From: Thiomicrorhabdus sp. 6S3-12
GTDB lineage: Bacteria > Pseudomonadota > Gammaproteobacteria > Thiomicrospirales > Thiomicrospiraceae
Direction of reading: 5' to 3'
DNA length: 64,000 bases
Assembly (NCBI RefSeq): GCF_017571475.1
Contig: NZ_JAGETW010000001.1
Coordinates: forward strand, 186,001-250,000
The notes beneath the pieces are model-generated. The model was not told the DNA's origin and did no database searches. It saw nothing but the letters and a program-made list of their open reading frames with translations. Made by a program: the position numbers and the translations under genes. Shown one piece after another: positions 3,982 to 20,423 of this stretch. How positions within the stretch are numbered: the stretch's first letter is position 1; each line of letters opens with the position of its first letter.

Positions 3982-5238
3982 ATGGATAACAAAATTTCGC
4001 CAGCAACAATGAAACGACGAAAAGTTCTTAAATCACTCCTTGCCATTCCAGCAGCCATGGCTCTGGCAGGCGGAACTTTCGGTTCTCTTGCTCACGCTTC
4101 AGAAGTTAACACTACAGGCCTGGCCGTCACTGACGACACGGTAAAAGTGGGGATTCTTCACTCTGTAACAGGGACTATGGCAATCAGTGAAACCGGTTCC
4201 GTTCAGGCAGAAAAACTGGCCATTGAGCAAATCAACGCAATGGGCGGTGTTTTAGGCAGAAAGATTGAATATATTCAAGAAGATGGTGCAAGTGACTGGC
4301 CAACCTTCGCTGAAAAGTCTAAAAAACTATTGGTTAACGACAAAGTTGCGGCGGTATTCGGATGCTGGACATCTGCTTCACGTAAAGCAGCACTTCCAGT
4401 ATTTGAACAATACAACGGTATGCTTTTCTACCCGACTTTCTATGAAGGGCTAGAGCAATCTCCTAACGTAATCTACACAGGTCAAGAAGCGACTCAGCAG
4501 ATCCTGAAAGGTATCGACTGGGCGAAAGAAACCAAAGGCGCTAAGAAATTCTTCCTACTTGGTTCTGACTACATCTGGCCTCGTACTTCAAACAAAATCG
4601 CGCGTAAACACATCGAGAAACTTGGTTTGAAAGTTGTCGGTGAAGAGTACTACCCTCTGGGTCACACTCAGTTCAACTCTGTAATCAACAAGATCAAACT
4701 TAAGAAGCCAGACGTTATCTTCACAACCGTTGTTGGTGGTTCTAACGTTGCATTCTACAAGCAGCTTAAAGCAGCCGGTATCGATCTAACTAAAGAGAAG
4801 CCATTAGTACTGACTCTATCTGTAACCGAAGATGAAATCCTAGGTATTGGCGGTGAAAACGTTGAAGGTCTATACGCTTCAATGAAGTACTTCCAAAGCT
4901 TGCCTAACGACAACAATAAGAAATTTGAAGCTGCATTTAAGAAAATGTGGGGAGAGAAGAGCGTTATTGGTGACGTAACTCAAGCGGCATATCTTGGTCC
5001 TTGGCTATGGAAAGCAGCTGTTGAAAAAGCAGGTTCTTTCGATGTTGACGCAATCAAGAAAACACTTCCAGGCATCGAGTTGACGACTGCACCAGAAGGT
5101 TATGTAAAAGTTCACCCGAACCATCACCTATGGTCTAAATCTCGTATCGGTCATGCTAAAGCAGACGGTACTTTTGATGTCGTTTATGAATCTAAAGAAT
5201 TGATTGAACCAAATCCATTCCCTAAAGGTTATCAATAA
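3982..5238 (+). CDS. urtA: Urea/short-chain amide ABC transporter substrate-binding protein
   Basis: This is the periplasmic binding protein that delivers urea, or possibly short amides, to the UrtBCDE importer. The 418 residues have an N-terminal signal with a twin-arginine-like KRRKVLKSLL followed by a hydrophobic run and an AHA-type cleavage region near residue 40. The mature part is a type I periplasmic binding fold of the UrtA/FmdD/AmiC family (VKVGILHSVTGTMAISE, then GCWTSASRKA). A ribosome site AAGGA precedes the ATG. It is first in the five-gene urt operon, behind a sigma-54 promoter. A long hairpin after the stop may keep its mRNA more abundant than the downstream genes. Urea is the likelier ligand given the urease cluster, but the adjacent formamidase leaves amides possible. 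Confidence 0.93.
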   Translation: MDNKISPATMKRRKVLKSLLAIPAAMALAGGTFGSLAHASEVNTTGLAVTDDTVKVGILHSVTGTMAISETGSVQAEKLAIEQINAMGGVLGRKIEYIQEDGASDWPTFAEKSKKLLVNDKVAAVFGCWTSASRKAALPVFEQYNGMLFYPTFYEGLEQSPNVIYTGQEATQQILKGIDWAKETKGAKKFFLLGSDYIWPRTSNKIARKHIEKLGLKVVGEEYYPLGHTQFNSVINKIKLKKPDVIFTTVVGGSNVAFYKQLKAAGIDLTKEKPLVLTLSVTEDEILGIGGENVEGLYASMKYFQSLPNDNNKKFEAAFKKMWGEKSVIGDVTQAAYLGPWLWKAAVEKAGSFDVDAIKKTLPGIELTTAPEGYVKVHPNHHLWSKSRIGHAKADGTFDVVYESKELIEPNPFPKGYQ

Positions 5239-5247
5239 GCACTTAGT

Positions 5248-5316
5248 GCGCGTGCAGCTAACAACAGGCTGCCGCGCCTAATTAAATACTTTCTATAGAG
5301 AGTATTTAATTAGGCG
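5248..5316 (+). repeat. Tandem hairpins between urtA and urtB
   Basis: The first stem pairs 5248-5258 with 5268-5277 with one bulge. The second is a 42-base palindrome, with perfect 16-base arms at 5275-5290 and 5301-5316 and a centre that can also pair, broken only by one G-T pair. There is no T tract, so a simple terminator is unlikely. Such hairpins after a binding-protein gene usually stabilise the upstream mRNA or attenuate downstream expression. Confidence 0.8.
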
Positions 5317-5384
5317 AATTCAAAATAACAAGATCCTTTTTTTCACTTCCGAACAACTCACTTTATCCACTAGGAGGAAAGTAC

Positions 5385-6311
5385 ATGTTTGCCGATTATA
5401 CATGGGCTGAACTCGGCTCAATCTTTGCAATGCAAGGCTTCTCTGGATTAATACTGTTTGCAGTATTACTCCTGATGGCCTTAGGTCTAGCGATCATCTT
5501 CGGACAGATGGGCGTAATCAATATGGCACACGGGGAATTTATGATCCTGGGCGCTTATATCACATACCTCACATCCAACCTTTTTGCCGACTTTCTTCCT
5601 AGCCTGTTCGACATCTATTTCTTCATCGCCATGATCTTTGCCTTTATAGGGACTTTCCTCTTAGGCATGCTCGTGGAATGGAGTCTAATTCGCCATCTAT
5701 ACAAAAGACCACTGGACACGCTTCTAGCGACATGGGGACTGAGTCTAATCCTACAACAACTTTACAGAACCGTTTTCGGGCCTCGTGAAGTAGGCGTAAG
5801 TCTTCCGGATTGGATGATGGGATCTTATGCACTGACAGATACCATCGAAATTCCGATTAACGGGATTATCGTTATGGTCATCACTTTCGTTATCACCGTA
5901 GGCGTATTCCTGTTCCTACAAAAATCACGAAAAGGCAAACAAGCGCGAGCAGTCGTTCAAAACCGTGCCATGGCCGGTGCTGTTGGTATTAATACCGCTA
6001 AAGTCGACCGTTTCACCTTCGCACTGGGTTGCGGGATTGCCGGGATTGCCGGAGCGACTTTCACCATGATCGGCTCGACAGGACCAACTTCAGGCCAGCT
6101 GTATATCGTAGATACCTTCCTGGTCGTCGTATTCGGTGGTGCAGCAAGCTTACTTGGAACCATTGCATCTGCGTTCTCAATTGCACAAGCACAATCCATT
6201 ATGGAGTTCTTCTTAAGTGGCTCTATGGCAAAAGTATTAACCCTACTAGCGGTCATCGTAATTTTGATGCTACGTCCGCAAGGCTTGTTCTCGCTTAAAG
6301 TGCGTAAATAG
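5385..6311 (+). CDS. urtB: Urea ABC transporter permease UrtB
   Basis: This is the inner-membrane permease of the branched-chain amino acid (LivH) type, pairing with UrtC to form the channel. The 308 residues contain about eight hydrophobic segments and the family signature QMGVINMAHGEFMILGAY near residues 44-62. A strong ribosome site (AGGAGG) precedes the ATG. It lies 146 bases after urtA, separated by the tandem hairpins, and 8 bases before the likely urtC start. It lacks the long N-terminal periplasmic extension of some cyanobacterial UrtB proteins. Confidence 0.94.
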   Translation: MFADYTWAELGSIFAMQGFSGLILFAVLLLMALGLAIIFGQMGVINMAHGEFMILGAYITYLTSNLFADFLPSLFDIYFFIAMIFAFIGTFLLGMLVEWSLIRHLYKRPLDTLLATWGLSLILQQLYRTVFGPREVGVSLPDWMMGSYALTDTIEIPINGIIVMVITFVITVGVFLFLQKSRKGKQARAVVQNRAMAGAVGINTAKVDRFTFALGCGIAGIAGATFTMIGSTGPTSGQLYIVDTFLVVVFGGAASLLGTIASAFSIAQAQSIMEFFLSGSMAKVLTLLAVIVILMLRPQGLFSLKVRK

Positions 6312-6319
6312 GAGGCATG

Positions 6320-7435
6320 ATGTTACAAAGTAAATTTAAATCGTTAACCCCAAGAAATGACGTACTGTCATTTGTTGTACTCGCAGTTTTACTGCTTGTC
6401 CTACTGCCTCTATTGTTTGATATTTTCCGACTAAACTTGATCGGAAAATACCTAACCTTCGCATTCGTGGCAATCGGCCTGGTTTTATCCTGGGGTCTTG
6501 GAGGAATTCTGAGTCTGGGGCAAGGGATCTTCTTTGGTATCGGCGGCTATGCCATGGCGATGTTCCTTAAACTGGAAGCATCGACACCGGAAAATACGGC
6601 AATCCAATCAACTCCTGGGATTCCTGACTTTATGGACTGGAACCAGCTAACGGCTCTGCCATGGTTCTGGGAACCCTTCCACAGCTTTGGCTTCACACTT
6701 GTTGCAATCATCGTCTTACCGGCAATTTTTGCTTACATTATCGGTGCTGCAATGTTTAAACGACGCGTGGGCGGGGTGTATTTCGCGATCATCACTCAGG
6801 CAATCGCTGCTATCTTGACCATCCTTATCATTGGTCAGCAGGGGTACACAGGTGGTGTTAACGGTATTACTGACTTAAGAACGCTACTTGGCTGGGACAT
6901 TCGTACCGATTCAGCCAAATATATACTCTACTTCGTCAACGCCATCTTACTTCTAGCGGTTCTAGTTGCTGCACAGTACATTCGTAAAAGCAAACTGGGG
7001 CGCCTACTGGTCGCAATGCGCGACAGTGAAGACCGTGTCCGCTTCTCCGGATATGACGTAGATAACTACAAAATTTTCATCTTCTGTATCGCAGGGATCT
7101 TCTCTTCGATCGGTGGCGCCATGTTCACGCTGCAAGTCGGATTCATGTCGCCTTCACTGATCGGTATCGTTCCATCGATTGAAATGGTTATCTTCGCAGC
7201 CGTAGGTGGAAACCTGTCTATCTTCGGTGCCGTTTACGGAGCGCTGATCGTCAACTGGGCAAAAACCATCTTGTCCGAATCCTACCCGGAAGTCTGGTTG
7301 TTTGCGATGGGTGCACTGTTCATCGCGGTTGTACTGGCATTCCCTAAAGGTTTGGCAGGACTGTATGAGACTTACCTTCAGCCAAAAGTCGACAAACTTC
7401 TCGACAAGAAGCTAAAGAAAGATAAAGCAGAGTAA
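6320..7435 (+). CDS. urtC: Urea ABC transporter permease UrtC
   Basis: This is the second permease of the urea importer (LivM type), 371 residues, with the signature GLGGILSLGQGIFFGIGGYAM near residues 55-75 and multiple membrane spans. Two ATGs occur in tandem at 6317 and 6320. The ribosome site GGAGG ends at 6315, so the second ATG (4-base spacing) is preferred over the first (1 base). It is followed by a lysine-rich cytoplasmic tail. It sits between urtB and urtD in the usual order. Confidence 0.93.
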   Translation: MLQSKFKSLTPRNDVLSFVVLAVLLLVLLPLLFDIFRLNLIGKYLTFAFVAIGLVLSWGLGGILSLGQGIFFGIGGYAMAMFLKLEASTPENTAIQSTPGIPDFMDWNQLTALPWFWEPFHSFGFTLVAIIVLPAIFAYIIGAAMFKRRVGGVYFAIITQAIAAILTILIIGQQGYTGGVNGITDLRTLLGWDIRTDSAKYILYFVNAILLLAVLVAAQYIRKSKLGRLLVAMRDSEDRVRFSGYDVDNYKIFIFCIAGIFSSIGGAMFTLQVGFMSPSLIGIVPSIEMVIFAAVGGNLSIFGAVYGALIVNWAKTILSESYPEVWLFAMGALFIAVVLAFPKGLAGLYETYLQPKVDKLLDKKLKKDKAE

Positions 7436-7456
7436 AAAGGAAATTTGGAGAAGACC

Positions 7457-8203
7457 ATGTATCAACAAAAAGATTTTGTACTCAGTGTTGAAGGCTTAAC
7501 GGTTTCATTTGATGGATTCAAAGCGGTGAACAACGTTTCCTTCTACATCGAAGAACAGGAAATTCGCGTCATTATCGGCCCTAACGGTGCCGGTAAGACC
7601 ACCATTCTGGATCTTATCTGCGGAAAAACCAAATCAACAGAAGGATCCATTAAATTTAAAGGTAAAGAACTTACCAAACTGCGTGAGCACGAAATTGTTC
7701 ACGCTGGTGTCGGCCGTAAATTTCAGAACCCGTCAATCTATGAAGATTTAACGGTATTTGAAAACCTGGAGCTTTCTTACCCTAAGGGCAAGAAAGTATG
7801 GGGTGCTCTAACCTTCACTCGAGACCAAGCGGTTATCGACAAGGTAAATGAGATTGCCGAAATGATTTTCTTGAAAGAAATGCTGCAAAGCAAAGCCAGC
7901 CTACTGAGCCACGGCCAGAAGCAGTGGCTGGAAATCGGCATGCTATTGATTCAAGACCCTGAACTTCTAATGCTGGATGAGCCTGTCGCCGGTATGTCGG
8001 TTTCGGAAAGAAAGCAAACCGCGGCACTACTGCAAAAAATTACCCAAGACCGTTCAGTACTTGTTATCGAACATGACATGCACTTCGTTGAAGAGATTGC
8101 TGACCGTGTAACTGTAATGCACCAAGGTCAAGTACTTTCGGAAGGTTCAATGGATCACGTTCAGTCGGATCCGAAAGTTATCGAAGTCTACCTAGGTCAT
8201 TAA
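7457..8203 (+). CDS. urtD: Urea ABC transporter ATP-binding protein UrtD
   Basis: This is one of two ATPases driving urea import (LivG type). It has Walker A GPNGAGKTT, the signature region LLSHGQKQWLEIGMLL (the C loop reads LSHGQ, as is usual for UrtD) and Walker B LLMLDEPVAGMS. A TTG at 7445 would add four residues, but it overlaps the ribosome site GGAGAAG (7447-7453). The ATG at 7457 is therefore the likely start, giving 248 residues. It is followed after 15 bases by urtE. Confidence 0.94.
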   Translation: MYQQKDFVLSVEGLTVSFDGFKAVNNVSFYIEEQEIRVIIGPNGAGKTTILDLICGKTKSTEGSIKFKGKELTKLREHEIVHAGVGRKFQNPSIYEDLTVFENLELSYPKGKKVWGALTFTRDQAVIDKVNEIAEMIFLKEMLQSKASLLSHGQKQWLEIGMLLIQDPELLMLDEPVAGMSVSERKQTAALLQKITQDRSVLVIEHDMHFVEEIADRVTVMHQGQVLSEGSMDHVQSDPKVIEVYLGH

Positions 8204-8218
8204 GAGGAGATCTACAAC

Positions 8219-8908
8219 ATGTTAGAAATTAAAGACTTACATGTCGCCTACGGAGAGAGTGAGGTCGTAAAAGGGTTAAATCTTTCTCTTAAAGAAAACG
8301 AAATCATCGCGGTACTGGGACGAAACGGGATGGGTAAAACCACACTCATGAAATCCCTGATCGGCATGATCCCAACCAAAAGCGGTTCAGTTCAACTGAA
8401 AGGAAAAGAGCTCAGCGGAATGAAAAGTCATGACCGCGTTGCCGCTGGCGTCGGCTTCGTTCCTCAGGGGCGAATGATTTTCTCGACCATGACCGTTGAG
8501 GAAAACATTGAAACCGGCCTGACGACGACTAAAGAATCCAAAGTACCGGAAGAACTGTACAACATCTTCCCGATCCTGCGCGATTTCCGCAAACGTCGCG
8601 GCGGAAACCTATCCGGTGGTCAACAGCAGCAGCTGGCGATTGCCCGCGCGCTGGCCAGTAACCCGGACGTACTGCTTCTGGATGAACCAACAGAGGGTAT
8701 TCAGCCATCGATCATCAAAGAGATGGCGCACACCCTGAAAGAGATTCGCGATTCGCACGGACTATCCATCATCGTTTCTGAGCAGGTTTTGAGCTTTGCA
8801 CTCGATGTTGCAGACCGAATCATCGTCATCGAAAAAGGCAAAATCATTCACGATCAGCCTAAAGACGAAGTCGATGAAGAACAGATAGCGAAATTCCTGT
8901 CGGTTTAA
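8219..8908 (+). CDS. urtE: Urea ABC transporter ATP-binding protein UrtE
   Basis: This is the second ATPase (LivF type), 229 residues. It has Walker A GRNGMGKTT, signature LSGGQQQQLAIARAL and Walker B LLLDEPTEGIQPS; EGIQPS is typical of UrtE. A ribosome site AGAGGAG precedes the ATG. It ends the transporter operon; fmdA follows after 58 bases with no terminator visible, so the amidase genes may be co-transcribed with the transporter. Confidence 0.95.
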   Translation: MLEIKDLHVAYGESEVVKGLNLSLKENEIIAVLGRNGMGKTTLMKSLIGMIPTKSGSVQLKGKELSGMKSHDRVAAGVGFVPQGRMIFSTMTVEENIETGLTTTKESKVPEELYNIFPILRDFRKRRGGNLSGGQQQQLAIARALASNPDVLLLDEPTEGIQPSIIKEMAHTLKEIRDSHGLSIIVSEQVLSFALDVADRIIVIEKGKIIHDQPKDEVDEEQIAKFLSV

Positions 8909-8966: not shown

Positions 8967-10199
8967 ATGGCTGAAACGATAGTTAAAATCGACCTTTCAA
9001 AGTCTGCCTACGACAATGAACAGGTTCATAACCGCTGGCACCCGGACATCCCGATGGCTGCAACCGTCAAACCTGGCGATGATTTCATTCTTGAATGTTA
9101 TGACTGGACAGGTGGACAGATCAAAAACGACGACGACGCATCGGATATCCGTGACGTTGACCTGTCTCAGGTTCACTTCCTCTCCGGTCCGGTCGGTGTT
9201 GAAGGCGCACAGCCTGGTGACCTTCTTGAAGTCGATATCCTTGATATCGGTACTTTCGAAGAAAGCAACTGGGGGTTCAACGGACTTTTCTCGCTTAACA
9301 ACGGTGGCGGTTTCTTGACCGATCACTATCCTGATGCTCAGAAAACCATTTGGGATTTCAACGGCATCATGACCAAATCCCGTCACATTCCAGGCGTTGA
9401 ATTTGCAGGTCTGCTGCACCCGGGTCTAATCGGATGCCTTCCATCAAAAGAGATGCTTAAAGAATGGAACGAGCGTGAAAAAGCGCTTTACGATACTGAG
9501 CCTGATCGTGTTCCTGCACTGGCTACCCTTCCGTACGCTGAAACCGCACACATGGGGCAGATGAAACCGGAAGCAGCGAAAGAAGCGGCTAAAGAAGGTG
9601 CACGTACCGTACCGCCACGTGAGCACGGCGGTAACTGTGACATCAAAGATTTGACCAAAGGTTCAAAAATCTACTTCCCTGTATACGTAGATGGTGCCGG
9701 CCTATCCGTTGGTGACCTTCACTTCAGCCAGGGTGACGGCGAAATCACCTTCTGTGGTGCGATTGAAATGGCCGGTTGGATTCACCTGCGCGTCAATCTG
9801 ATTAAAGACGGTATGAGCAAATATGCCATCAAGAACCCAATCTTCAAGCCAAGCCCGCTAACGCCTCGTTACGACGACTACGTTGTCTTCGAAGGTATCT
9901 CGGTTGACGAAGAAGGTAAACAGCACTATCTGGATGTTAACGTCGCATACAAACAGGCGTGTTTGAATGCCATCGAGTATATGAAGAAATTCGGTTATAC
10001 CGGTGAACAGGTTTACTCGCTACTGGGTACAGTTCCGACTCAAGCGCATATCAGCGGTATCGTTGATATTCCAAACGCCAGTGCGACGCTTTGGATGCCT
10101 ACCGGAGTATACGACTTTGATATCAACCCTAACGCCGAAGGACCGACTAAACAAGTTGATGAAAGCGTAACGGTTCCAATCGCTCCAGACGAGAAATAA
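8967..10199 (+). CDS. fmdA: Formamidase, FmdA/AmdA acetamidase family
   Basis: FmdA hydrolyses formamide to formate and ammonia. The 410 residues match the FmdA/AmdA family of Methylophilus methylotrophus throughout, with characteristic stretches such as DWTGGQIKNDD, HFLSGPVGVEGAQPGDLL, REHGGNCDIKDL and GDLHFSQGDGE. It is cytoplasmic, with no signal peptide. In M. methylotrophus fmdA sits with amide transport genes homologous to urt and with a porin gene, a context mirrored here. This family is unrelated to the nitrilase-type amidase encoded at 13299-14342, so the cell carries two amidase types side by side. Confidence 0.93.
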   Translation: MAETIVKIDLSKSAYDNEQVHNRWHPDIPMAATVKPGDDFILECYDWTGGQIKNDDDASDIRDVDLSQVHFLSGPVGVEGAQPGDLLEVDILDIGTFEESNWGFNGLFSLNNGGGFLTDHYPDAQKTIWDFNGIMTKSRHIPGVEFAGLLHPGLIGCLPSKEMLKEWNEREKALYDTEPDRVPALATLPYAETAHMGQMKPEAAKEAAKEGARTVPPREHGGNCDIKDLTKGSKIYFPVYVDGAGLSVGDLHFSQGDGEITFCGAIEMAGWIHLRVNLIKDGMSKYAIKNPIFKPSPLTPRYDDYVVFEGISVDEEGKQHYLDVNVAYKQACLNAIEYMKKFGYTGEQVYSLLGTVPTQAHISGIVDIPNASATLWMPTGVYDFDINPNAEGPTKQVDESVTVPIAPDEK

Positions 10200-10216
10200 T
10201 TTAAGGAGTTTTGCCA

Positions 10217-10606
10217 ATGCCTGTTTATGATTACAAATGCCAAGAACATGGAATTTTTCATGAGTTAGCGACCATTGATGATGCAGCTGAACCCATGCCA
10301 TGTCCACACTGTAAAGAACTTGCGCCAAGAATCCTGATGGTTCCGCCGGAAATTCTCGACATGGCCCCTGAAAAGCGAAAAGCCATTGAGAGAAACGAAA
10401 AAGCCCAGCATGAACCAAAAATGTCGACTAAGGAAAGTCGTGCAGAGGACGAAGAACGCCGCAAGTTTGAAGAAAAGCTCCACAAACACCATCACAAGGG
10501 TTGTGGTTGCGGAGGCCATCATAAGAAAAAGGCTTCCAAGCTGATGTGGACTGCAAATGGCGAGAAAATGTTCCCGTCAATGCGTCCTTGGATGATTAGT
10601 CACTAA
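10217..10606 (+). CDS. fmdB: FmdB-family zinc-ribbon protein
   Basis: This small protein (129 residues) has the FmdB N-terminal signature PVYDYKCQEHGIFHE and a CPHC pair (about residues 30-33), followed by a charged linker and a Cys/His-rich tail (HHHKGCGCGGHH). FmdB was described as a regulatory protein of amide use in Methylophilus; its biochemical role is unclear. The first cysteine pair is degenerate (CQEH), but the His/Cys tail could complete a metal site. The ATG at 10217 has AAGGAG 8 bases upstream; a TTG at 10211 is too close to that site. It follows fmdA by 17 bases and is followed by a terminator. Confidence 0.85.
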   Translation: MPVYDYKCQEHGIFHELATIDDAAEPMPCPHCKELAPRILMVPPEILDMAPEKRKAIERNEKAQHEPKMSTKESRAEDEERRKFEEKLHKHHHKGCGCGGHHKKKASKLMWTANGEKMFPSMRPWMISH

Positions 10607-10621
10607 ACAGCTCCGGCAAAG

Positions 10622-10833: not shown

Positions 10834-11367
10834 TTGAAAATCACAACATGGTTACTCCTGCTTTCAAGCTTCTTTGCGACTCAGAGTCTGGCAAGTGACA
10901 CTGACGATAAACAACAGCAAATTGAAATCGGCAAACTTTACTACCAGAACCTGTTCGACAACCAGCCTGGCAAAAGTTACGAACTGCTCTCATCCAAGGA
11001 CAAGGAATCCTTTAGCAAGGAACAATTCACTCGAGTCATCGCTTTGAAAACCTCTGTTTTGGATAAAAACAGAGTGGTCACCATCAAAGGGGCAAGCATT
11101 ACCGAATCCGATGAAAGCATGGCTGTCGTCCAGGTAACCGCTGAACTCTCAACCCCGGGCAGCATGGAAGTGAAAACCGTAAAAGCAACGCAATTACTGT
11201 TAAAAGAAAATAATGAATGGAAAGTGTATTCTGCGCACGCGATCGCTTCGATCCTCATGCAAGCTAAATATGCCTGTGATAAGGACACCACTATCGCCCA
11301 GCAACTAAAAGAAGAAGCTTGTAACCTCTATTACGGAACAAAAACCCCGAACGAAGGGCAAAAGTAA
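10834..11367 (+). CDS. Secreted hypothetical protein, DUF4019-like
   Basis: A 177-residue protein begins with a clear signal peptide (MKITTWLLLLSSFFATQSLAS, cleavage near residue 21). The mature domain resembles small periplasmic DUF4019/NTF2-like proteins (LYYQNLFDNQPGKSYELLSS, then a beta-rich part with LLKENNEWKVYSAH). The start is a TTG with the ribosome site AAAGGA upstream; no in-frame ATG would preserve the signal peptide. It sits alone between the fmdB terminator and the convergent VWA gene. No function is assigned; the family identification is by general resemblance. Confidence 0.65.
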   Translation: MKITTWLLLLSSFFATQSLASDTDDKQQQIEIGKLYYQNLFDNQPGKSYELLSSKDKESFSKEQFTRVIALKTSVLDKNRVVTIKGASITESDESMAVVQVTAELSTPGSMEVKTVKATQLLLKENNEWKVYSAHAIASILMQAKYACDKDTTIAQQLKEEACNLYYGTKTPNEGQK

Positions 11368-11527
11368 TCAATTAATTATCGGACCCGCACGGGAACATAG
11401 ACATGCCCAGCTATTTTTGAATCTGCAACTGGCGCCAAGAATGAGAAGAAAACGTCTCTCCGCCCCCTTCCCCTCGCGTAGAAAAGCGCATAAAGCCTAA
11501 CCAAGACATTGGCCAAGCATCAGGCCA

Positions 11528-13273
11528 TCAGGCCAGAAATGACTTAAAGACCTTTAAATACAGCTTAGTCAGGATTTGCGGAAGCTTCTCCGCATGCTCG
11601 ACCACCTCATAATGCCCTTTTCTGAAAATTTTCTGCACATAATCATCCGCATTCTTATCCAGAGAAAGACAGAAAGTCTTACAGCCGGCCGATTCTATGT
11701 CTTTAATCGCCACCGCGCTATCTTCAATCAAATACTGCGGGTCGTACACATCGATATCGGAGGGTTGACCATCAGTAATAACCAGAATCAGTCTATGTCG
11801 CTCAGGGCGGCGGCTGATTTTGTGGAAGGCATGACGGAGAGCAGTCCCCAGACGCGTTGAATAAGCCGCTTTGGCCTGTCCCAAAGCTGCCAGAGAGGTT
11901 TCCGATTCGCCATCAAAGTCTTTAAAATTGTAATAGGACACTTCGCCACGACCATTGGAATTAAACCCCTGAATCGCATACGAATGCCCGAGGCCGTCCA
12001 GCAGCTGGGAAAGCACGACGGTGGAATCCAAAGTCAGATCCAGCACACTCTCGGCCCCTTCGGCATGCGGATCGTTCATCGATTCGGATAAATCCAGCAA
12101 CACCAGCAGAGAGAGCTCATGCTGACGCTCGCGAACATGATCGATATAGATACGCGACTCCGAAGCCGCACCGCCCTTTTTCAATTCTACCAGCTGGTCT
12201 ACAAGCGCCTCGAAATCCAGTTCTACGCCGTCTTCCTGCTTCTTTCGGCGATGCATCTGCGACTGATAGGACTGAATAATATGCTGCAGTTTGTTTACGA
12301 AGCTACGATAGTGCTCTATCCGCTGTTCAAGCGCATTTGAATCTTGTTCGTGAAAGGTAATTTCATCCAGCGAACACCACTTCTGCTTCCAGCGGGCGAT
12401 CTTATAGTCCCACTCGGGATAGGCAAACATTTCATGCGTCGGCGTATGCTTTAACAGCGAGGACTGAACCTCTTCGTCGACGGTCGTAAAAACCAGACCG
12501 TCAACTTCGCCGGCACCTTCTTTATAACTGGAAACCGACTTGCCATCCAGAACCTCTTCGTAGCCGATTCCGGTCACACTGACCGATTCGTCATCTCCGC
12601 TGGCCTGTTCACTTTGGGTCGCGACTTCCTCATAGGCGTTCCACAGATAGGAATTATCATCGCGGTAATCAACCAGCCTGAATTCGTCTCTTTCATTCAT
12701 ACTGATGCGCATCTGGCCAACATCGTTAGCCAATGCAAGACCGATTGCACGGAAAAGCAATGGATTCTCCACATCCTCTTCTACCGCCTCCTGAAAAAGC
12801 CGGCGCGCTTTGCTGACAAAAGGATTATCCGCAATATCCACCTCATTCACCAAGGCATAAGCGACGGCATAGGCAATCTCGGCGAACTGCAACGAGTTAG
12901 ACGGTTTTTTCGTGTAATTCCTGCGGAAAAGCGAGCGCATGCCCGGAAAGACCTGAGAAGCCAAATATTCCACTCTGGCATCTTCCAGCAGCGAAATAAG
13001 AACCAGCTGACGATTATTCAGCCCGGAGGAGTCTTGCGGTACGGAATACACAATATGTGCAGCCGCATGTAAAGCCGAGCTTAAGAAACGCTGACGGGCT
13101 TCTTTATCGGTCTCGGCTTCAATAAATTCGGGAAGGAAAATGGTACCGGCTCTGACAAGCGGTACCACTTCATTATCATTTAGTGGAAGCACCCTGAATG
13201 AGCGCCCCCAGAAGGCTAATAATGTAAGTTCTAATTGACGCTGTACATCATTTAATAAAACGTTATAACTCAT
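11528..13273 (-). CDS. CbbO/NorD-like protein with C-terminal von Willebrand factor A domain
   Basis: This 581-residue protein resembles the CbbO/NorD group, which works with a MoxR-type AAA+ ATPase (CbbQ/NorQ) to remodel or activate a client enzyme, such as Rubisco or nitric oxide reductase. The C-terminal third is a VWA domain with an intact metal-ion site: DLSES (DxSxS) in LLVLLDLSESMND, a conserved Thr region and ITDGQPSDID. The N-terminal two thirds are helical with HAAAHIVYS and LLEDARVEYLA. No MoxR/CbbQ ATPase is in the window. It is 25 bases downstream of amiE on the same strand and is probably co-transcribed with it, suggesting AmiE or another amide/nitrogen enzyme as client. Confidence 0.78.
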   Translation of the reverse strand: MSYNVLLNDVQRQLELTLLAFWGRSFRVLPLNDNEVVPLVRAGTIFLPEFIEAETDKEARQRFLSSALHAAAHIVYSVPQDSSGLNNRQLVLISLLEDARVEYLASQVFPGMRSLFRRNYTKKPSNSLQFAEIAYAVAYALVNEVDIADNPFVSKARRLFQEAVEEDVENPLLFRAIGLALANDVGQMRISMNERDEFRLVDYRDDNSYLWNAYEEVATQSEQASGDDESVSVTGIGYEEVLDGKSVSSYKEGAGEVDGLVFTTVDEEVQSSLLKHTPTHEMFAYPEWDYKIARWKQKWCSLDEITFHEQDSNALEQRIEHYRSFVNKLQHIIQSYQSQMHRRKKQEDGVELDFEALVDQLVELKKGGAASESRIYIDHVRERQHELSLLVLLDLSESMNDPHAEGAESVLDLTLDSTVVLSQLLDGLGHSYAIQGFNSNGRGEVSYYNFKDFDGESETSLAALGQAKAAYSTRLGTALRHAFHKISRRPERHRLILVITDGQPSDIDVYDPQYLIEDSAVAIKDIESAGCKTFCLSLDKNADDYVQKIFRKGHYEVVEHAEKLPQILTKLYLKVFKSFLA

Positions 13274-13298
13274 GCATACATCGTCAATTCAGAGGAGC

Positions 13299-14342
13299 TT
13301 AGCGATGCTCGGTTGTAGTCTCTTCGTTAGGAATTCCGTCGATAGGACATTCAGCCGTACCAACAGTCTTACGGGTAATCTTCTCGACCTGCTCTTTGGC
13401 TTTTTCAGGATCATTGATCCAGGTTGAGTAGAATTCGTAAGGACACGCAGCCACACCCTGATCGCCTTCACCGGAGTTGATCTTGCCGGTATAACCGCGG
13501 TGCAGAAGTTTGAACAGGTGGTTCTGAGACTGAGCATTTTTGCGGAAGTCACGGATCTGAGAAACAGACAGCTCGGCATACTGAATACCGTAATCTTCTT
13601 CACCACACTCACCCAAAGTATGACCGTCGAAACCGATGATTGCAGAGTGACCGAAGTATGAGTAAACACCGTCGAAACCACTGGCATTGGCAACCGCAAC
13701 GTAGGTATTGTTCATCCAGGCCATCGCTTTGGAAACCATAACCTGCTGTTCTTTAGCCGGGTACATGTAACCCTGACAACGAACAACCAATTCAGCACCT
13801 TTCATTGCGCAGTCACGCCAGATTTCAGGGTAGTTACCGTCATCACAGATGATCAAACTGATCATCATGCCTTTAGGTCCTTCAGTTACATAAGTCTTAT
13901 CACCCGGGTACCAGCCTTCAACCGGACACCAAGGCATGATTTTTCTGTACTTCTGAACAATCTCACCTTCGTCGTTGATCAGAATCAAAGTGTTGTATGG
14001 CGCCTTGTTAGGATGCTCTTCATGCTGTTCACCAGTCAGAGAGAAAACACCCCAGGTTTTCGCTTTCTTACAGGCTTCAGAAAAAATTCGTGTTTCGTCA
14101 CCAGGAATCGTTGATGCCGTATCGTACATTTCCTTGGCATCATACATAATGCCGTGAGTGGAGTACTCAGGGAAAATTACCAGATCCATCCCCGGCAACC
14201 CCTGTTTCATGCCAATAATCATATCGGCGATTTTCTGTGCATTATCAAGCACTTCATCCTTTGTATGCAGGCGCGGCATTTTATAGTTAACAACCGCGAC
14301 ACCTACTGTATCGTTACTGGAAGAGATATCTCCATGTCTCAT
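13299..14342 (-). CDS. amiE: Aliphatic amidase (nitrilase superfamily)
   Basis: AmiE hydrolyses short aliphatic amides such as acetamide and propionamide to the acid plus ammonia. The 347 residues align nearly without gaps to Pseudomonas AmiE ([20 protein letters not shown] start). The catalytic triad is visible: E59 in FPEYS, the Lys of [11 protein letters not shown] and the nucleophile Cys in [12 protein letters not shown]. AmiE-type rather than AmiF formamidase is favoured by the N terminus and length, but substrate range needs testing. Upstream (14343-14650) are a sigma-54-like promoter and a strong NtrC-like site. The CbbO/NorD-like gene follows. Confidence 0.92.
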
Positions 14343-14452
14343 GCTTAATTCCCCATAAACTCTGAATTACTAAATTAAAAACCTTAAACCTGCGTTATCG
14401 TTGCAATGGGCAATAGTTCACAGCCCCAACGCAGTACATAGGAACTATCATT

Positions 14453-14468
14453 AACAAAAGACATGCCA
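14453..14468 (-). promoter_or_regulatory. Candidate sigma-54 promoter of amiE
   Basis: On the minus strand the 16-mer reads TGGCATGTCTTTTGTT. The -24 part (TGGCATG) is good, but the normally invariant GC at -12 reads GT. It lies about 110 bases upstream of amiE, downstream of a strong NtrC-like site. The match is weaker than that of urtA. Confidence 0.4.
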
Positions 14469-14601
14469 AGAACCTCAATTTAAAACCCGATGTAAAAAAT
14501 TAACTATCTACTTGATTTAAAAGAAAAAAATATCACTATTACAAAATAGCAGCTCAAGTGAAAAATTCAATACACATTACTACATGGTTGAATGACAAGA
14601 C

Positions 14602-14618
14602 TGCACCATAAAAGTGCA
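14602..14618 (-). promoter_or_regulatory. NtrC-like binding site upstream of amiE
   Basis: TGCACCATAAAAGTGCA differs from the NtrC consensus TGCACCA-N3-TGGTGCA at only two constrained positions. It lies about 135 bp upstream of the sigma-54-like element, a typical enhancer distance. Confidence 0.62.
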
Positions 14619-14685
14619 TTCAAATTCAAAAACGAAACATCGCCCAAATCACTTTAGTTCAAAACACCGTTCCGTGTTGCAAAAA

Positions 14686-14715
14686 CAAAAAAACAGGCCG
14701 GAGCCTGTTTTTTTT
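14686..14715 (-). terminator. Terminator of the urease/nickel permease operon
   Basis: An AAACAGGC / GCCTGTTT stem with a 4-base loop has A and T runs on the two sides, so it can work in either direction. It lies just after the nickel permease stop codon on the minus strand. Confidence 0.85.
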
Positions 14716-14730
14716 AAGAAGCATTTGCAA

Positions 14731-15399
14731 TCAACCAAATAGGAGATAACCGCCAACGCCGATAGAGGTCACCCCCATAAGCGAATAACCGCCGCGCAGC
14801 AGCGCTTTAGACTGCATCAGCTTTTGATTCAGAAGCATGAGCGCAAAGCCGAAAAGTACAAAAATAATCGCCACGCCCAAGGTAAAACTAAGAATCATCA
14901 TCGGGCTGACCGCCTGTTCAGACAAGGCCGCTAAGGAAACCAACATACCGCGTGCCCCGCCGATTCCCATCAGCACACCCAGCGTCGCCGCCATTGCCCA
15001 GCCTTTTTTCGTCACATCGACCGTCTTTCCGTCGGCATGGCTGTGTGATTTTCCGTACCAGATATGAATATGCTCACGACCATTATGCGAGTGCTTACTA
15101 AGGTGAATACGATCGGCCAGCACCAGATACAGCAGATAAGCCCCCATAATAATTAACAGCGAAACACCGGCAATATCCCCCCAAGCCAGTAACTCGTCGG
15201 ACAAAGCAAACTGCTGCAACAGCAAAGCAAACAGATACAGACTGACACCATGGCCAATGGCAAAACCGAGCGCCACCTTAAACACGCGACGGCGCTCACG
15301 ACCAATCGAAAAATCTGCAATTGCCGTAAGATGATCCGGCCCGAAAGCGTGCAGCATGCCGTAAAAAAAGACGATTAACAGGCCGGTTTCCAGCATCAC
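14731..15399 (-). CDS. Nickel permease of the NicO/UreH type
   Basis: This 222-residue membrane protein, with about six spans, probably supplies nickel to urease. It has the nickel/cobalt transporter signature HX4DH (HAFGPDH, residues 17-23) in the first helix, a second metal-lining motif GHGVSLYLF, and a His-rich cytoplasmic loop ([19 protein letters not shown]) typical of NicO/UreH proteins. It is last in the urease operon and overlaps ureG by four bases, which argues for translational coupling and a urease role. HupE/UreJ permeases are the other common urease-linked type; the HX4DH and His loop make NicO/UreH the better fit. Confidence 0.82.
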
Positions 15400-15998
15400 A
15401 ACATCCCTTTTTCAACAATAAAATCGACAACCGTCTGCAGGCCTTCGAGTTTTTTCAGATTGGTAAAAACATATGGCCGCTCGCCGCGCTGCATTTTAGT
15501 ATCGCGATCCATCACCTCCAGACTGGCCCCGACATACGGCGCCAAATCGGTCTTATTGATAATCAGCAAATCCGATTGCGTAATGCCCGGACCGCCTTTA
15601 CGGGGAAGTTTGTCGCCGGCAGCGACATCAATAACATACAACGTCAGGTCGGAAAGTTCCGGACTGAAAGTCGCGCTTAAATTATCACCGCCGGATTCGA
15701 TAATCACCATATCAAGATGATCGAATTTTTCCTGAAGCTCTTCGATCGCCGTCAGATTCATCGACGCATCTTCGCGAATCGCCGTATGCGGACAGCCGCC
15801 GGTTTCAACCCCGACAATACGCTCTTCATCCAAAGCATTCTGACGAATCAGGATCTGCTGATCTTCCTTGGTATAGATATCGTTCGTCACGACGGCAATA
15901 TTGTAATCGTCGCGCATCGCCTTACATAACATCTCAATCAGAGCTGTTTTTCCCGAGCCAACCGGCCCGCCAATTCCCAATCTCAAAGGACCTTTCAT
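15396..15998 (-). CDS. ureG: Urease accessory GTPase UreG
   Basis: UreG is the SIMIBI-class GTPase that powers nickel delivery to apo-urease together with UreD, UreE and UreF. The 200 residues show the P-loop [11 protein letters not shown], the metal-binding CPH motif in [14 protein letters not shown], Walker B-like [15 protein letters not shown] and NKTDL. It lacks the His-rich N-terminal extension of some UreG proteins; here the His-rich tails are on UreE and the nickel permease. It lies 18 bases after ureF. Confidence 0.97.
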
Positions 15999-16016
15999 GC
16001 GTACTCCATCGTTTTC

Positions 16017-16682
16017 TTATGAACGAAATAATCGTGAATATTGAATTTCATGCTGGGCACTGAGAATGGCGTAATTCGGCAAACTCATCCCCAAAGCATC
16101 TTTAGGTAAATTTTGTGCCGTCTTAACCGCTTCCAGCACAACCTCGTCTAATTCGAGCATCATCACTTGAGCCTGCGTCTGGCCGATCGAACAAAGCTTC
16201 AACAAAGCGGCGATCTGATTTTCCAGCCAACTCCAGGCAAAGGCGGTCAGAGCCTGCTGCAGATCAACCCGCCAGACCTGTGCAAATCGGGCATAAACCA
16301 CGGGAAACGAAGTCTTGCGGTTAAACCGATCATCGATCGGCACACCCATCGGCTCTGCCAGTCGTAGCAGAGCGCGACTTAAATGGGAATCTTCCTGTAA
16401 AAGCTCCTCGGTTTCTCTTAATGCCCGACTGGTCTTGGCCAGTAAATTAAGCTGCGCATAATCCTCTTGCTGCCAATGCGCATACGCCTGGGCAATCACG
16501 GCCAAATCATTGTTAGCCAGTGATTGCCTGAGCAGCAAGGTCATCCATGCCTTGGCTTGCTTGATATCCGCAACCTGACCTTGATGAACGGCAGCTTCCA
16601 AGCCTTGCGAATAGGCGTAGGCGCCAATCGGCAAGCTCGGACTATTAAGCTGCAGTAGTCTGAGGAGTTTTTGCTGTGACAC
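16017..16682 (-). CDS. ureF: Urease accessory protein UreF
   Basis: UreF bridges UreD and UreG on apo-urease and controls UreG GTPase activity during nickel insertion. The 221 residues are all-helical with the family start LLQLNSPSLPIGAYAYSQGLE and the C-terminal part typical of UreF. It lies 16 bases after ureE. Confidence 0.95.
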   Translation of the reverse strand: MSQQKLLRLLQLNSPSLPIGAYAYSQGLEAAVHQGQVADIKQAKAWMTLLLRQSLANNDLAVIAQAYAHWQQEDYAQLNLLAKTSRALRETEELLQEDSHLSRALLRLAEPMGVPIDDRFNRKTSFPVVYARFAQVWRVDLQQALTAFAWSWLENQIAALLKLCSIGQTQAQVMMLELDEVVLEAVKTAQNLPKDALGMSLPNYAILSAQHEIQYSRLFRS

Positions 16683-16698
16683 TCGCAGCCCCCGTTAA

Positions 16699-17199
16699 TC
16701 AGTGATGATGATGGTGATGATCATGGCTGTGTGAATGAGCATGAGAGTGCTCATGCCCGCCGTGATGATGGCCACCGCCATAAGCACCGCTCTCCGGCTG
16801 GAAACTTGCCATTTCGGAGGTAACGGTTCCGCCGAGCTGACGAACCATGTCGTCCAGAACATGGTCGTGCACATAGCGCAGCCATTCCGGCTCGACCTGC
16901 AAAGGAACATGACGATTTCCCAGATGATAGGCGATGCGCAGAAGCAGATGGGTGTCGGGTGCCGTAATCGTCGATACCGATTCCAATGCCGCTTTAACGA
17001 CAACGCTTTCCCCCTGCTGGTTACTCAGAACATCGCCCTCTCGCAACACCGTACCGCGCGGCAAGAACAACCCGACCTCTTCTCCACTGTCCAAAGAGGC
17101 TTTTAAACGGCTTTTCTCCCGCTGACTGAAGTTCAGCGTCAGGGTCCCAAGATTCAGATCATCCTGTTTTACCTGATTGACAACAAAAAACTCTTTCAT
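16699..17199 (-). CDS. ureE: Urease nickel metallochaperone UreE
   Basis: UreE dimerises and hands nickel to UreG. With the ATG at 17199 the protein is 166 residues. A longer frame to 17262 would overlap the ureC end by 50 bases; the start at 17199 has AAGGAA upstream and gives the normal N terminus MKEFFVVNQV. It has an N-terminal peptide-binding domain and a C-terminal metal-binding domain (HLGNRHVPLQ, then YVHDHVLDDM). The tail is extremely His-rich (about 13 histidines in the last 25 residues), as in Klebsiella UreE, suggesting nickel storage as well as delivery. Confidence 0.95.
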   Translation of the reverse strand: MKEFFVVNQVKQDDLNLGTLTLNFSQREKSRLKASLDSGEEVGLFLPRGTVLREGDVLSNQQGESVVVKAALESVSTITAPDTHLLLRIAYHLGNRHVPLQVEPEWLRYVHDHVLDDMVRQLGGTVTSEMASFQPESGAYGGGHHHGGHEHSHAHSHSHDHHHHHH

Positions 17200-17210
17200 A
17201 AACGATTTCC

Positions 17211-18920
17211 TTAAAACAAAAAGTAGCGCTGAGCCAGAGGCAGCTGATCGAAAGGCTCGCAAATGATCAATTCGCCATCCACCCTCACCTCATAGGTTTC
17301 CGGATCAACCGTAATGTTCGGCATCAGATCATTCAGCACCATATCCTTCTTACGGATATTGCGCGTATTACGCACAGGCTTGACGATCTTTTGCAGCTTC
17401 AATTTATCCGCAATTCCGTCCTCATAAGCCGTCTGCGAGACAAACGTAATCGAGGTATTACTCATCGAAGGCCCTTGAGCGGCAAACATCCCTCTATAAT
17501 GAACCGGCTGAGGCGTCGGGATCGAGGCATTGATATCTCCCATCGGCGCTGCGGCAATCATGCCACCCTTGATAATCATTGAAGGCTTGGCGCCGAAAAA
17601 AGCCGGTTTCCACAGCACCAGATCGGCAAACTTTCCGACTTCGATCGAGCCGACATAATCGGCAATACCGTGGGTGATAGCCGGGTTGATAGTGTATTTC
17701 GCGACATACCGCTTGGCTCGGAAGTTATCGCAATCCGCTCCCTCATCTTCCGGAAGAGCGCCTCTCTGAACCTTCATCTTGTGCGCCGTCTGCCAGGTAC
17801 GGGTAACCACCTCCCCGACACGCCCCATCGCCTGCGAATCGGAGGAGATCATCGAAAAAGCCCCCAGATCATGCAAAATATCTTCGGCAGCAATGGTTTC
17901 GCGGCGAATCCTGGACTCGGCAAAAGCGACATCTTCGACAATATTCGGATCAAGGTGATGGCACACCATCAACATATCGAGGTGTTCGTCAATCGTATTC
18001 ACTGTAAACGGGCGCGTCGGATTAGTTGAGGAAGGCAAGACATTCGGCAGCTTACAGGCCACGATAATATCCGGGGCGTGCCCGCCTCCGGCACCTTCTG
18101 TATGATAAGTATGGATAACACGATCTTTCAGGGCAGCGATCGTCTCTTCGACAAAACCGGATTCGTTCAAAGTATCCGTATGAATCGCAACCTGTATATC
18201 GTAGTCTTCGGCAACCGACAGACAGTTATCGATAGCCGCCGGCGTACTTCCCCAATCCTCATGCAGTTTCAGTCCGATGGCACCGGCTTCCACCTGCTCA
18301 ATCAGCGGATCGGGAAGCGACACATTCCCTTTACCGAGAAAACCCAGATTCATTGGAAAAGACTCTGCAGAACGCAGCATCTGATGAAGATACCAAGGGC
18401 CTGGAGTACAGGTCGTCGCATTGGTTCCGGCTGCAGGACCGGTTCCGCCGCCGATCATGGTCGTCACCCCGGACATAAGCGCTTCTTCGATCTGTTGCGG
18501 ACAGATAAAGTGGATATGCGCATCAATACCGCCCGCGGTCAGAATCTGACCTTCACCGGCGATCACTTCCGTTCCGGCACCGATCTCAAAATCCACACCC
18601 GGCTGAACATCCGAATTACCGGCTTTACCGATGGCGGCAATATTTCCGTCCTTAATGCCGACATCAGCTTTCACGATTCCCCAGGTATCCAGAATCAACG
18701 CATTGGTAATAACGGTATCCATAACCCTGTCAGAACAGGCTTGTCCCTGCCCCATGCCGTCGCGAATAACCTTACCGCCGCCAAATTTGACCTCTTCGCC
18801 GTATAAAGTGTAGTCCTGCTCGACCTTGATCCACAGTTCGGTATCGCCCAGACGCACCTTGTCGCCGACAGTCGGGCCATACATCTCACTGTAAGCTTTT
18901 CGATCCAATTTATAACTCAT
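17211..18920 (-). CDS. ureC: Urease subunit alpha (catalytic)
   Basis: UreC is the dinickel catalytic subunit splitting urea into ammonia and carbamate. The 569 residues carry all active-site elements: HIH (H135/H137), the carbamylated lysine K218 in [29 protein letters not shown], the flap MVCHHLDP and the nickel-ligating Asp in SSDSQAMGR. It is intact and full length. The start overlaps ureB by four bases. Confidence 0.98.
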
Positions 18921-19234
18921 GCATCCTCCCCAAGCGGTCCCATGACTTTCTGTTGAAAACCGTAAACTTTGCGTTTACCGCCAATGGCAACCAACTCGAC
19001 TTTGCGAACCTGCCCCGGTTCGAATCGAACCGCAGTCCCTGCCGGTATATTCAAGCGAAACCCCTTCGCCATTTCCCGCTCGAACTGCAACGCCGGATTC
19101 ACTTCATAAAAATGGTAATGCGACCCCACCTGAACAGGTCGATCTCCCGCATTGGCAATTTCAAGCGTGATCAACTTTCGGTCGACATTCAGCTCGACAT
19201 CGCCTTCGGCAACAACTATTTCTCCCGGAATCAT
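18917..19234 (-). CDS. ureB: Urease subunit beta
   Basis: This structural subunit of the (UreABC)3 urease is 105 residues, with the signature [16 protein letters not shown] at the start and [16 protein letters not shown] in the middle. It overlaps ureC by four bases and follows ureA by 9. Confidence 0.97.
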
Positions 19235-19243
19235 TTCGACCTC

Positions 19244-19546
19244 CTATACGATTGGCTGATGCACGGTAACAAGCTTGGTTCCGTCCGGAAAGGTCGCTTC
19301 TACCTGCACTTCATCGATCATCTCGGGCACACCGTCCATGACCTGTTCCCGGCTAAGAACCGTGGTTCCAAAATCCATCAGCTCGGCAACGGTTCGTCCA
19401 TCTCTGGCCCCTTCCAATATCGCACAGCTAATCAGCGCGATCGCTTCCGGGTAGTTCAACTTCAGGCCGCGGGCGAGCCTGCGTTCTGCAACCAGACCTG
19501 CCGTAAACAGCAACAACTTATCTTTTTCTCTCGGTAAAAGCTCCAC
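19244..19546 (-). CDS. ureA: Urease subunit gamma
   Basis: The smallest urease structural subunit is 100 residues. It begins [17 protein letters not shown] and contains [12 protein letters not shown] and [20 protein letters not shown], all diagnostic. Separate ureA and ureB genes are the usual bacterial arrangement. Confidence 0.97.
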
Positions 19547-19583
19547 TCCGCCTCCTTGTAACCTTACTTAACGAATACCGACC

Positions 19584-20423
19584 CTAAGTCTTCCAAATTC
19601 TCGGATAGACTGGAGGAACGCCAATAATTAAAGACCTTGAAATCTCCCAAGCGCGAATCAAACGGTTTTTCAAATCATCGAGATCGCAATCCAATGTTCG
19701 TAAAACCAACACCTCATCGACCAGTGAAATGCCGCACCTATCCGACCACGGCTCCTCAAGCAGCAGCGCCCTGATTTTTTTAAGAACGTTTTTATCCGCA
19801 TGATAAAAAAGCATGGTCGCCATCAGCGTCTGCGCGGCAAGGGAAAAAGGACTGCTTAAAAGCTCCGACTGACCCGAAAATACAAACCGGTCGATAAAAA
19901 TCGGCTCTTTATGCAAATTGACAGTCAAACTCTGCACAAGATGACCGTTCTCGAATGTTTCTTGCATGGCCGGACGACCCAGGCCGACGATATCCCAGGC
20001 AATCAACCGGCAATCTGTATCGTGCAAATTAAAGACCAGAGTGTTTTTGACACTGGAACGATCGAAAAACAGGGTTTCCTGAGGCAGCCACTCAAGCTCA
20101 CAACCACCCGACACTTCGATCGTTTGCGATTGACAGGCTGTTTTGCCCAGACTCCGATAGAATTTCGTTGCCGCAGGCGTACTGATCAACGCTTTGGAGT
20201 CGGGCTGCATATCGACATTTAAAGACAGCTGATCTCCGGCAACAACACCGCCCGGCGGATGAATAACCAGAATCGTCGGCCGATCATCTTCCTGATAATA
20301 AGGCCTTTGCAGCACAAGAGGACCAAAGTGTTTCTTATCTTTTACAACGGTTTTATTCCATCGGTTGACCAATGAAAAAGATAAAAAACCTTTCCATCCC
20401 TGATTCAGTGAGGTATTAATCAT
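19584..20423 (-). CDS. ureD: Urease accessory protein UreD
   Basis: UreD binds apo-urease and forms the nickel passage with UreF and UreG. The 279-residue protein has the family features ILVIHPPGGVVAGDQLSLNV and TPAATKFYRS. It is the first urease gene, in the standard order ureDABCEFG, 37 bases before ureA. A weak terminator lies between it and the upstream porin gene, so it may be transcribed by read-through from the porin promoter or from its own. Confidence 0.95.
   Translation of the reverse strand: MINTSLNQGWKGFLSFSLVNRWNKTVVKDKKHFGPLVLQRPYYQEDDRPTILVIHPPGGVVAGDQLSLNVDMQPDSKALISTPAATKFYRSLGKTACQSQTIEVSGGCELEWLPQETLFFDRSSVKNTLVFNLHDTDCRLIAWDIVGLGRPAMQETFENGHLVQSLTVNLHKEPIFIDRFVFSGQSELLSSPFSLAAQTLMATMLFYHADKNVLKKIRALLLEEPWSDRCGISLVDEVLVLRTLDCDLDDLKNRLIRAWEISRSLIIGVPPVYPRIWKT

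Follow-up and report, generated by a model that had tools for sequence, protein, structure and literature searches.

The aliphatic amidase gene amiE of Thiomicrorhabdus sp. 6S3-12 is followed by a gene coding for a CbbO-like VWA protein, and this linkage, in which a CbbQ-like ATPase gene often takes part, is conserved in related and less related genomes. The pair lies in a stretch of 64,000 nucleotides (contig NZ_JAGETW010000001.1, positions 186,001 to 250,000), referred to as the window in the rest of the paper. For convenience, the CbbO-like VWA protein is called O and the CbbQ-like ATPase Q, and an O whose gene stands alone with amiE, with no adjacent Q, is called an orphan O. We propose, with confidence and doubt about evenly balanced, that O is an AmiE-recognising adaptor of a MoxR/VWA machine, which would borrow the CbbQ ring of RubisCO to remodel or reactivate AmiE.

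The product of amiE scores 725 bits against the NCBIfam equivalog NF009802 (cut-off 427), confirming that it belongs with the AmiE aliphatic amidases. The gene coding for O has the same orientation and lies downstream of amiE, with a gap of 25 bp in which a consensus scan found no terminator-like site. O contains a PF00092 VWA domain (32.3 bits compared to a cut-off of 23.8) and matched no NCBIfam family at E 0.01, the single row returned being at chance level (0.073). A phmmer search of the window with the host proteins CbbQ1 and CbbQ2 detected no CbbQ-like gene. The usual adjacent MoxR ATPase is thus missing, as had been claimed in a previous sequence-only reading of this DNA.

The genes amiE and O remain together wherever they occur in the host family. 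Among 62 genomes, the host's own included, an O-type gene was found in nine, an AmiE of more than 90% identity in the same nine, and the two genes were adjacent in all nine. The sequence-only reading had named the absence of the gene beside amiE in relatives as the observation that would tell against a link, and no such absence was seen. In the eight other genomes, O shares 44-96% identity with the O of the window, compared to 93-99% for AmiE. A peptide-pattern scan of genome contigs with O returned 33 pattern matches, none of which was confirmed as a relative. The sequence of O evolves too quickly for such patterns to work, so AmiE served as the bait instead, and the best 80 of 425 AmiE relatives were kept. 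L070-L073 were left out of the counts as duplicates of L076, L077, L087 and L078. These 80 closest loci, four of which come from family genomes, are not an unbiased sample.

Forty-six of the 80 carry Q followed by O downstream of amiE on the same strand (one ends at a contig edge after Q), two carry O followed by Q, 14 O alone, four a convergent O-Q pair and 14 neither gene; without the four family loci, the corresponding numbers among 76 are 46, 1, 11, 4 and 14. O and/or Q lies downstream on the amiE strand in 62 of the 80, mostly directly, with gaps mostly below 300 bp; wider gaps occur at five Q-O loci (0.6-2.4 kb) and before three O genes (0.55 kb in two cases, 3.9 kb in the third). At 48 loci amiE has a CbbQ-like gene as its same-strand neighbour, versus 14 with O alone, so that the description of O as lacking its ATPase holds as the rule in the host family (8 of 9 loci) but applies to a minority elsewhere. 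The four convergent pairs, which face amiE, belong to Ancylobacter and one Xanthobacteraceae genome (L102, L120, L132 and L153).

Even samples gave a broader picture. Of 397 Pseudomonadota genomes, 34 encode an AmiE that scores above the NF009802 cut-off; in the host's class, 14 of 370 genomes do, the host being counted in both. The 33 further loci of the phylum sample comprise 8 with Q-O, 10 with another AAA+ gene, which we call AmiB-type after what we take to be its name in the Pseudomonas ami operon, and 15 with neither; the 13 further loci of the class sample comprise 6 with O, 2 with Q-O, 3 with an AmiB-type gene and 2 with neither. Taken together, O or Q-O accompanies amiE at 16 of 46 loci, an AmiB-type gene at 13 and neither at 17. 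Two class loci, L301 and L304, are probably identical to L094 and L098, so that two of the 46 also occur among the 80. At L098/L304, amiE is followed by a second AmiE-like amidase gene (193 bits) and then by O, 3.9 kb from amiE. The order amiE-Q-O is also found on plasmids of Agrobacterium, Paraburkholderia and Rhizobium etli, where the databases label Q as 'CbbQ/NirQ/NorQ/GpvN family protein' and O as 'VWA domain-containing protein'. On the Agrobacterium plasmid (CP129670.1, L290 1-3982), an extra CbbQ-VWA pair and a hypothetical gene lie upstream of amiE-Q-O.

Alignments relate O to two known VWA families, in agreement with its earlier description as CbbO/NorD-like. Residues 6-572 align with residues 195-772 of the host's own CbbO2 (29.5% identity, E 2e-77), CbbO1 aligns over its residues 209-752, and residues 283-574 of O align with solved NorD chains (E 7e-30). 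At 581 aa compared to ~770 for CbbO, O lacks the first ~190 residues of the latter, while in 22 NorD-like proteins the match to CbbO2 does not start before residue ~400-480. An AlphaFold2 model (mean predicted local distance difference test score, pLDDT, of 73; predicted template modelling score of 0.49) shows a helical domain at the N terminus, followed by a disordered linker and then by a VWA domain that bears a two-helix finger, and its six best PDB matches are NorD chains from NorQ-NorD complexes. The finger helices are predicted at residues 323-346 and 354-365. Its insertion in the VWA domain is supported by these helices, although the tip region is modelled with pLDDT below 50, and by the conserved tip sequence, which in orphan O proteins resembles the tips of CbbO and NorD-like proteins.

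As expected for a VWA partner of a MoxR ATPase, of the CbbO, NorD or ViaA kind, O has a complete metal-ion-dependent adhesion site (MIDAS) of the form DxSxS-T-D (D394, S396, S398, T473 and D501). All five residues are kept in each of the 18 orphan O proteins aligned, in 2 of 2 from O-Q loci and in 17 of 18 sampled Q-O proteins (18 of 52 Q-O rows were used, two of every three being left out, and the truncated O of L081 was excluded). In NorQ-NorD, the finger of NorD enters the ATPase pore and its C-terminus contacts the post-sensor-1 loop of the ATPase (PMC13036017). O therefore retains the parts expected to face the client and the ATPase ring, despite having no adjacent ATPase.

In a quick tree built from the last 330 residues (26 of 52 Q-O rows, again without the truncated L081 protein), O groups with gammaproteobacterial AmiE-linked O proteins in a set of 19 rows (support 89, not starred) that comprises 17 of the 18 orphan O proteins and both O-Q ones. 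It falls outside the starred CbbO clade (20 rows, support 98) and outside a starred clade (22 rows, support 100) named NorD-like from low CbbO and CbbQ scores and the lack of RubisCO nearby, not from a nor context. Most O proteins of the Q-O type form a separate group, weakly joined by the orphan L079, and those of L205, L208 and the four convergent loci are nearer to CbbO.

With the CbbQO Rubisco activase, O shares the full-length alignment with CbbO2, the MIDAS, the finger tip and, we infer, probably the ATPase, CbbQ itself; it differs in the lack of the first ~190 residues and of an adjacent Q, in its position outside the CbbO clade and in its putative client gene, amiE instead of RubisCO. 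With NorQ/NorD it shares a VWA domain with finger and MIDAS, and the best solved-structure matches; the NorD-like proteins, however, form their own starred clade and have nothing but the VWA part in common with O. Reading the open reading frames of the window, for which no profile scan for nor genes was made, revealed no gene for a nitric oxide reductase.

These data bear on the possibility that O is a decaying relic of an amiE-Q-O operon that has lost Q. The fast sequence change of O would fit such decay, as would the O of an Acidithiobacillus caldus plasmid (L289 8141-9931), whose annotation splits it into two pieces next to insertion sequences. In contrast, the open frame and its adjacency to amiE are kept in all nine family genomes at identities down to 44%, and the five MIDAS residues in all 18 orphan O proteins. 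Furthermore, O comes first in the order seen here and belongs to a group distinct from the Q-O type. We thus consider a relic very unlikely.

An ATPase for O would have to be encoded elsewhere, and the search for cbbQ or norQ genes that the sequence-only reading had suggested found two CbbQ genes. They are the only CbbQ_C (PF08406) genes of the 2.55-Mb host genome (19 contigs), lie ~190-200 kb from amiE-O, and belong to a form II RubisCO locus with CbbO1 and to a form I RubisCO locus with CbbO2; O itself is not encoded with a CbbQ in a RubisCO locus. Two further clear MoxR (AAA_3) genes were ranked low as partners of O, since each sits beside a DUF58 gene. We scanned the orphan-O genomes for PF08406, scored their Q genes against host CbbQ1 and CbbQ2 and inspected the flanking genes. 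Because the presence of PF08406 anywhere in a genome is too blunt a test (124 of 397 genomes have it), RubisCO-type CbbQ, defined as at least 430 bits, was scored instead. Of 23 distinct orphan-O genomes, 21 encode a RubisCO-type CbbQ elsewhere, compared to 1 of 34 Q-O genomes (G827) (P = 2.5e-12, Fisher's test; 5e-9 without the host's own family). The 23 count G717/G467 and G513/G468 once each. The 34 comprise 24 named genomes (of the 46 Q-O loci), 8 from the phylum sample, whose verdict came from the number of Q genes plus L269 for G265, and 2 from the class sample, with overlap possible. Of the 21 genomes, 16 have a RubisCO gene near the CbbQ gene and four more a CbbO-type gene, while the CbbQ of G566 has neither within 1.5 kb. 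In six orphan-O genomes (G011, G458, G459, G463, G468 and G738), the RubisCO-type Q is the only PF08406 match.

The two loci in which O is followed by Q (L078 and L084) point independently in the same direction. In a careful tree of 46 rows (14 of 54 Q-O and 6 of 23 nor-like rows), both Qs fall among RubisCO CbbQs (22-row set, support 88/96; starred in the quick tree). The Q of L078, from a genome of the host's genus (G042), is sister to host CbbQ2 (97/93), although on a long branch that makes the exact sister less sure than membership among RubisCO CbbQs. Placing both Qs with the main Q-O clade was rejected (P = 0.002), as was placing either alone (L078, P = 5.5e-5; L084, P = 0.002), and so was a RubisCO-type clade that excludes both (P = 0.004). 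A single clade made of the Q-O type Qs alone was not rejected (P = 0.2). The groups used in these tests were named after the tree had been seen. G042 also keeps both RubisCO CbbQs, while the genome carrying L084 (G462) has no other PF08406 match. RubisCO-type Qs at O-Q loci are expected if this O group uses a RubisCO-type ring that is normally borrowed and at times duplicated. O in the window most likely borrows the RubisCO CbbQ ring, formed by CbbQ2 or else by CbbQ1.

Several points weigh against such borrowing. The 430-bit limit was chosen with the scores already known, and the extra Q genes of G813 (two, one of them a fragment) and G822 (one) were counted as non-RubisCO-type without having been scored. 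The contrast between orphan-O and Q-O genomes is confounded by lineage. In the class sample, PF08406 occurs in 12 of 13 genomes whatever the partner of AmiE, and a RubisCO-type CbbQ also in one of three AmiB-type genomes and one of two without a partner. Two orphan-O genomes known from metagenome-assembled loci lack a RubisCO-type Q, one (G460) having no PF08406 match and the other (G464) a 351-bit Q and a fragment only. These two genomes, and the lack of an adjacent Q in all 23, would suit an ATPase-independent action of O on AmiE, in which it would be a scaffold or an inhibitor. We regard this as quite unlikely, given that the Q-facing finger tip is kept, that 21 of the 23 genomes have a RubisCO-type CbbQ and that in two loci belonging to the same O group a gene for such a Q directly follows O.

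The sequence-only reading had also pointed to an ATPase-like gene, amiB, beside amiE in Pseudomonas aeruginosa, and had suggested from it that a role in amidase activation may have been overlooked. The AmiB-type protein consists of a single AAA_2 domain and a ClpB D2 small domain (PF07724 and PF10431) and has no homology to CbbQ beyond AAA+. Being ClpB-D2-like, it would be an alternative partner and not a relative of Q-O. It resembles Q in being encoded directly beside amiE, at 13 of the 46 sampled loci, but was never found with O or Q at any of the 46 (hypergeometric P = 0.001, uncorrected for kinship). The position beside amiE is thus filled by either of two AAA+ families that are unrelated to each other. 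The gene lies directly downstream of amiE at L189, L199, L201, L202, L204, L211-L213, L217 and L218 in the phylum sample and at L305, L307 and L308 in the class sample. Plasmids from Klebsiella, Parageobacillus and Rhodococcus likewise carry it next to amiE, in Rhodococcus in divergent orientation, while neither kind of partner is annotated beside the plasmid amiE of Bacillus methanolicus. The AmiB-linked AmiEs of the phylum sample form one starred clade in the AmiE tree. These 10 proteins differ from the O- and Q-O-linked AmiEs at clustered positions, including residues 63-74 and 329-337, which may mark a docking patch or simply clade history, as the differences follow this single clade. We found no paper on the AAA+ protein encoded beside amiE in the open-licence PMC literature.

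How O could act on AmiE is suggested by analogy with known MoxR/VWA machines. The MIDAS of CbbO docks on an acidic residue of RubisCO (PMC4660213), and the MIDAS of NorQD probably points toward the client (PMC9976466, PMC13036017). By analogy, the MIDAS of O would dock on AmiE, and its finger and C-terminus in a CbbQ-type AAA+ hexamer, whose ATP hydrolysis would remodel AmiE. Operons of the amiE-Q-O type would supply their own Q, and an orphan O would borrow one. In the simplest case, remodelling would clear the active site of a dead-end ligand bound tightly or covalently, as CbbQO does for RubisCO. This job is proposed because it is the simplest for a soluble hydrolase. A candidate ligand could derive from urea or cyanate and is plausible because urea uptake and urease genes surround amiE-O. 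The amidase of Pseudomonas aeruginosa is tightly inhibited by urea, a point that our literature search did not recover.

Other points weigh against O as an adaptor of AmiE. The connection between the two proteins rests on genomic linkage and sequence, from which we infer a physical complex, ring sharing and reactivation. O evolves much faster than AmiE, so that no contact stands out as conserved in both proteins; in one family genome (G005), O retains 44% identity to the host protein compared to 94% for AmiE. We looked for acidic AmiE residues specific to proteins with O or Q-O partners and found none. The AmiE-linked O proteins do not form one clade in the quick tree. Moreover, 17 of the 46 sampled loci have neither kind of partner, so that AmiE can probably work alone.

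The main alternative keeps the same machine and client but assigns it the assembly or maturation of AmiE, that is, folding or oligomer formation. It is suggested by NorD being the nearest solved relative of O, by the maturation of nitric oxide reductase by NorQD (PMC9976466, PMC13036017) and by the wording 'assembly/activation' in a passage on a plasmid operon discussed below (PMC13209695). The same 17 loci, which lack O, Q-O and AmiB-type neighbours alike, argue against it. In addition, AmiE needs no metal cofactor. Maturation appears unlikely to us, if less so than the remaining alternatives.

The locus is wider than the sequence-only reading had described. Positions 3982-20423 of the window form an amide/urea island with genes for an urt transporter, fmdA and fmdB on one side of amiE-O and urease genes on the other (Table 1). 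The strand of amiE-O is also that of the urease genes, from which it is separated by a terminator-like hairpin; the five terminator-like sites of the region do not exceed the number in shuffled sequence (mean 4.0). Elsewhere in the host genome, a second AmiE-like amidase with 35% identity to AmiE is encoded at G000:C18:70614-71486. The urt, fmdAB and urease genes flanking amiE-O raise the possibility that O serves another client of the locus, namely urease, formamidase or the transporter, and some other amiE-Q-O loci are also flanked by urt or formamidase genes, as on the Rhizobium etli plasmid, where the order is urtCDE-amiE-Q-O-acs. Yet it is amiE that O or Q-O follows on the same strand, mostly directly, in 62 of the 80 closest loci, and amiE and O occur in the same nine family genomes, making another client the least probable of the explanations considered.

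Table 1. Features of the amiE-O locus and its surroundings (window positions).
Feature	Position	Strand	Basis
urtABCDE-type ABC transporter genes	3982..8908	+	binding protein PF13433; other names by reading
fmdA formamidase and fmdB zinc-ribbon gene	8967..10606	+	NF045496 and TIGR02605
O, CbbO-like VWA protein, 581 aa, proposed amidase-specific adaptor	11528..13273	-	open frame, PF00092, CbbO2/NorD alignments
O C-terminal helix, residues 561-581	11531..11593	-	predicted structure and alignment
O MIDAS D501	11771..11773	-	alignments
O MIDAS T473	11855..11857	-	alignments
O MIDAS DxSxS, residues 394-398	12080..12094	-	D394, S396 and S398 invariant in alignment
O two-helix VWA finger with conserved tip, residues 323-365	12179..12307	-	predicted structure and tip sequence
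O helical N-terminal domain, residues 1-187, matching the middle part of CbbO	12713..13273	-	predicted structure and alignments
amiE, aliphatic amidase, 347 aa, proposed client	13299..14342	-	NCBIfam equivalog NF009802
Terminator-like hairpin, 12 pairs, between urease genes and amiE	14687..14714	-	consensus match, longest hairpin of the scan
Urease structural and accessory genes	14731..20423	-	names by reading translations

A related operon was described in May 2026 on plasmid pYu-LOS15-16, in which amiE is accompanied by a PF07728/PF08406 ATPase gene of the CbbQ/NirQ/NorQ family and a NorD-like gene; one sentence suggests a role in amidase assembly or activation, and homologues were found by BLASTN in Burkholderiales (PMC13209695). 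The relevant passages of that study concern one plasmid and contain no survey, orphan-O form, alternation with the AmiB type or link to RubisCO CbbQ. Among PMC papers under CC0, CC BY or CC BY-SA licences, we found no other that appears to join an aliphatic amidase with MoxR, CbbQ, NorQ or VWA proteins; of the further papers listed, PMC8926400 proved unrelated, and PMC11857848 concerns a Streptomyces genome.

An ATP-driven helper, little studied so far, thus probably serves AmiE. MoxR/VWA machines are widespread and few of their clients are known, among them RubisCO (PMC4660213), nitric oxide reductase (PMC9976466) and fumarate reductase (PMC10585395); if AmiE is a client, it would provide a soluble and easily assayed test system. 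The idea can be tested directly with the amiE-O pair and the two cbbQ genes, and through the unrelated AAA+ protein that replaces the machine in nature. If true, one ATPase ring would be shared between clients via separate adaptors, and a use would be suggested for the AAA+ gene beside other amiE genes. A broader proposal, which we hold only tentatively and think more apt to fail than to stand, is that RubisCO CbbQ is a motor shared by the interchangeable VWA adaptors CbbO (for RubisCO) and O (for AmiE) in autotrophic gammaproteobacteria and that AmiE needs ATP-driven reactivation by one of two unrelated types of AAA+ proteins. Carbon fixation and amide use would then draw on one ATPase pool, and CbbQ with its VWA partner and the ClpB-D2-like AmiB type would replace each other, much like the several unrelated activases of RubisCO.

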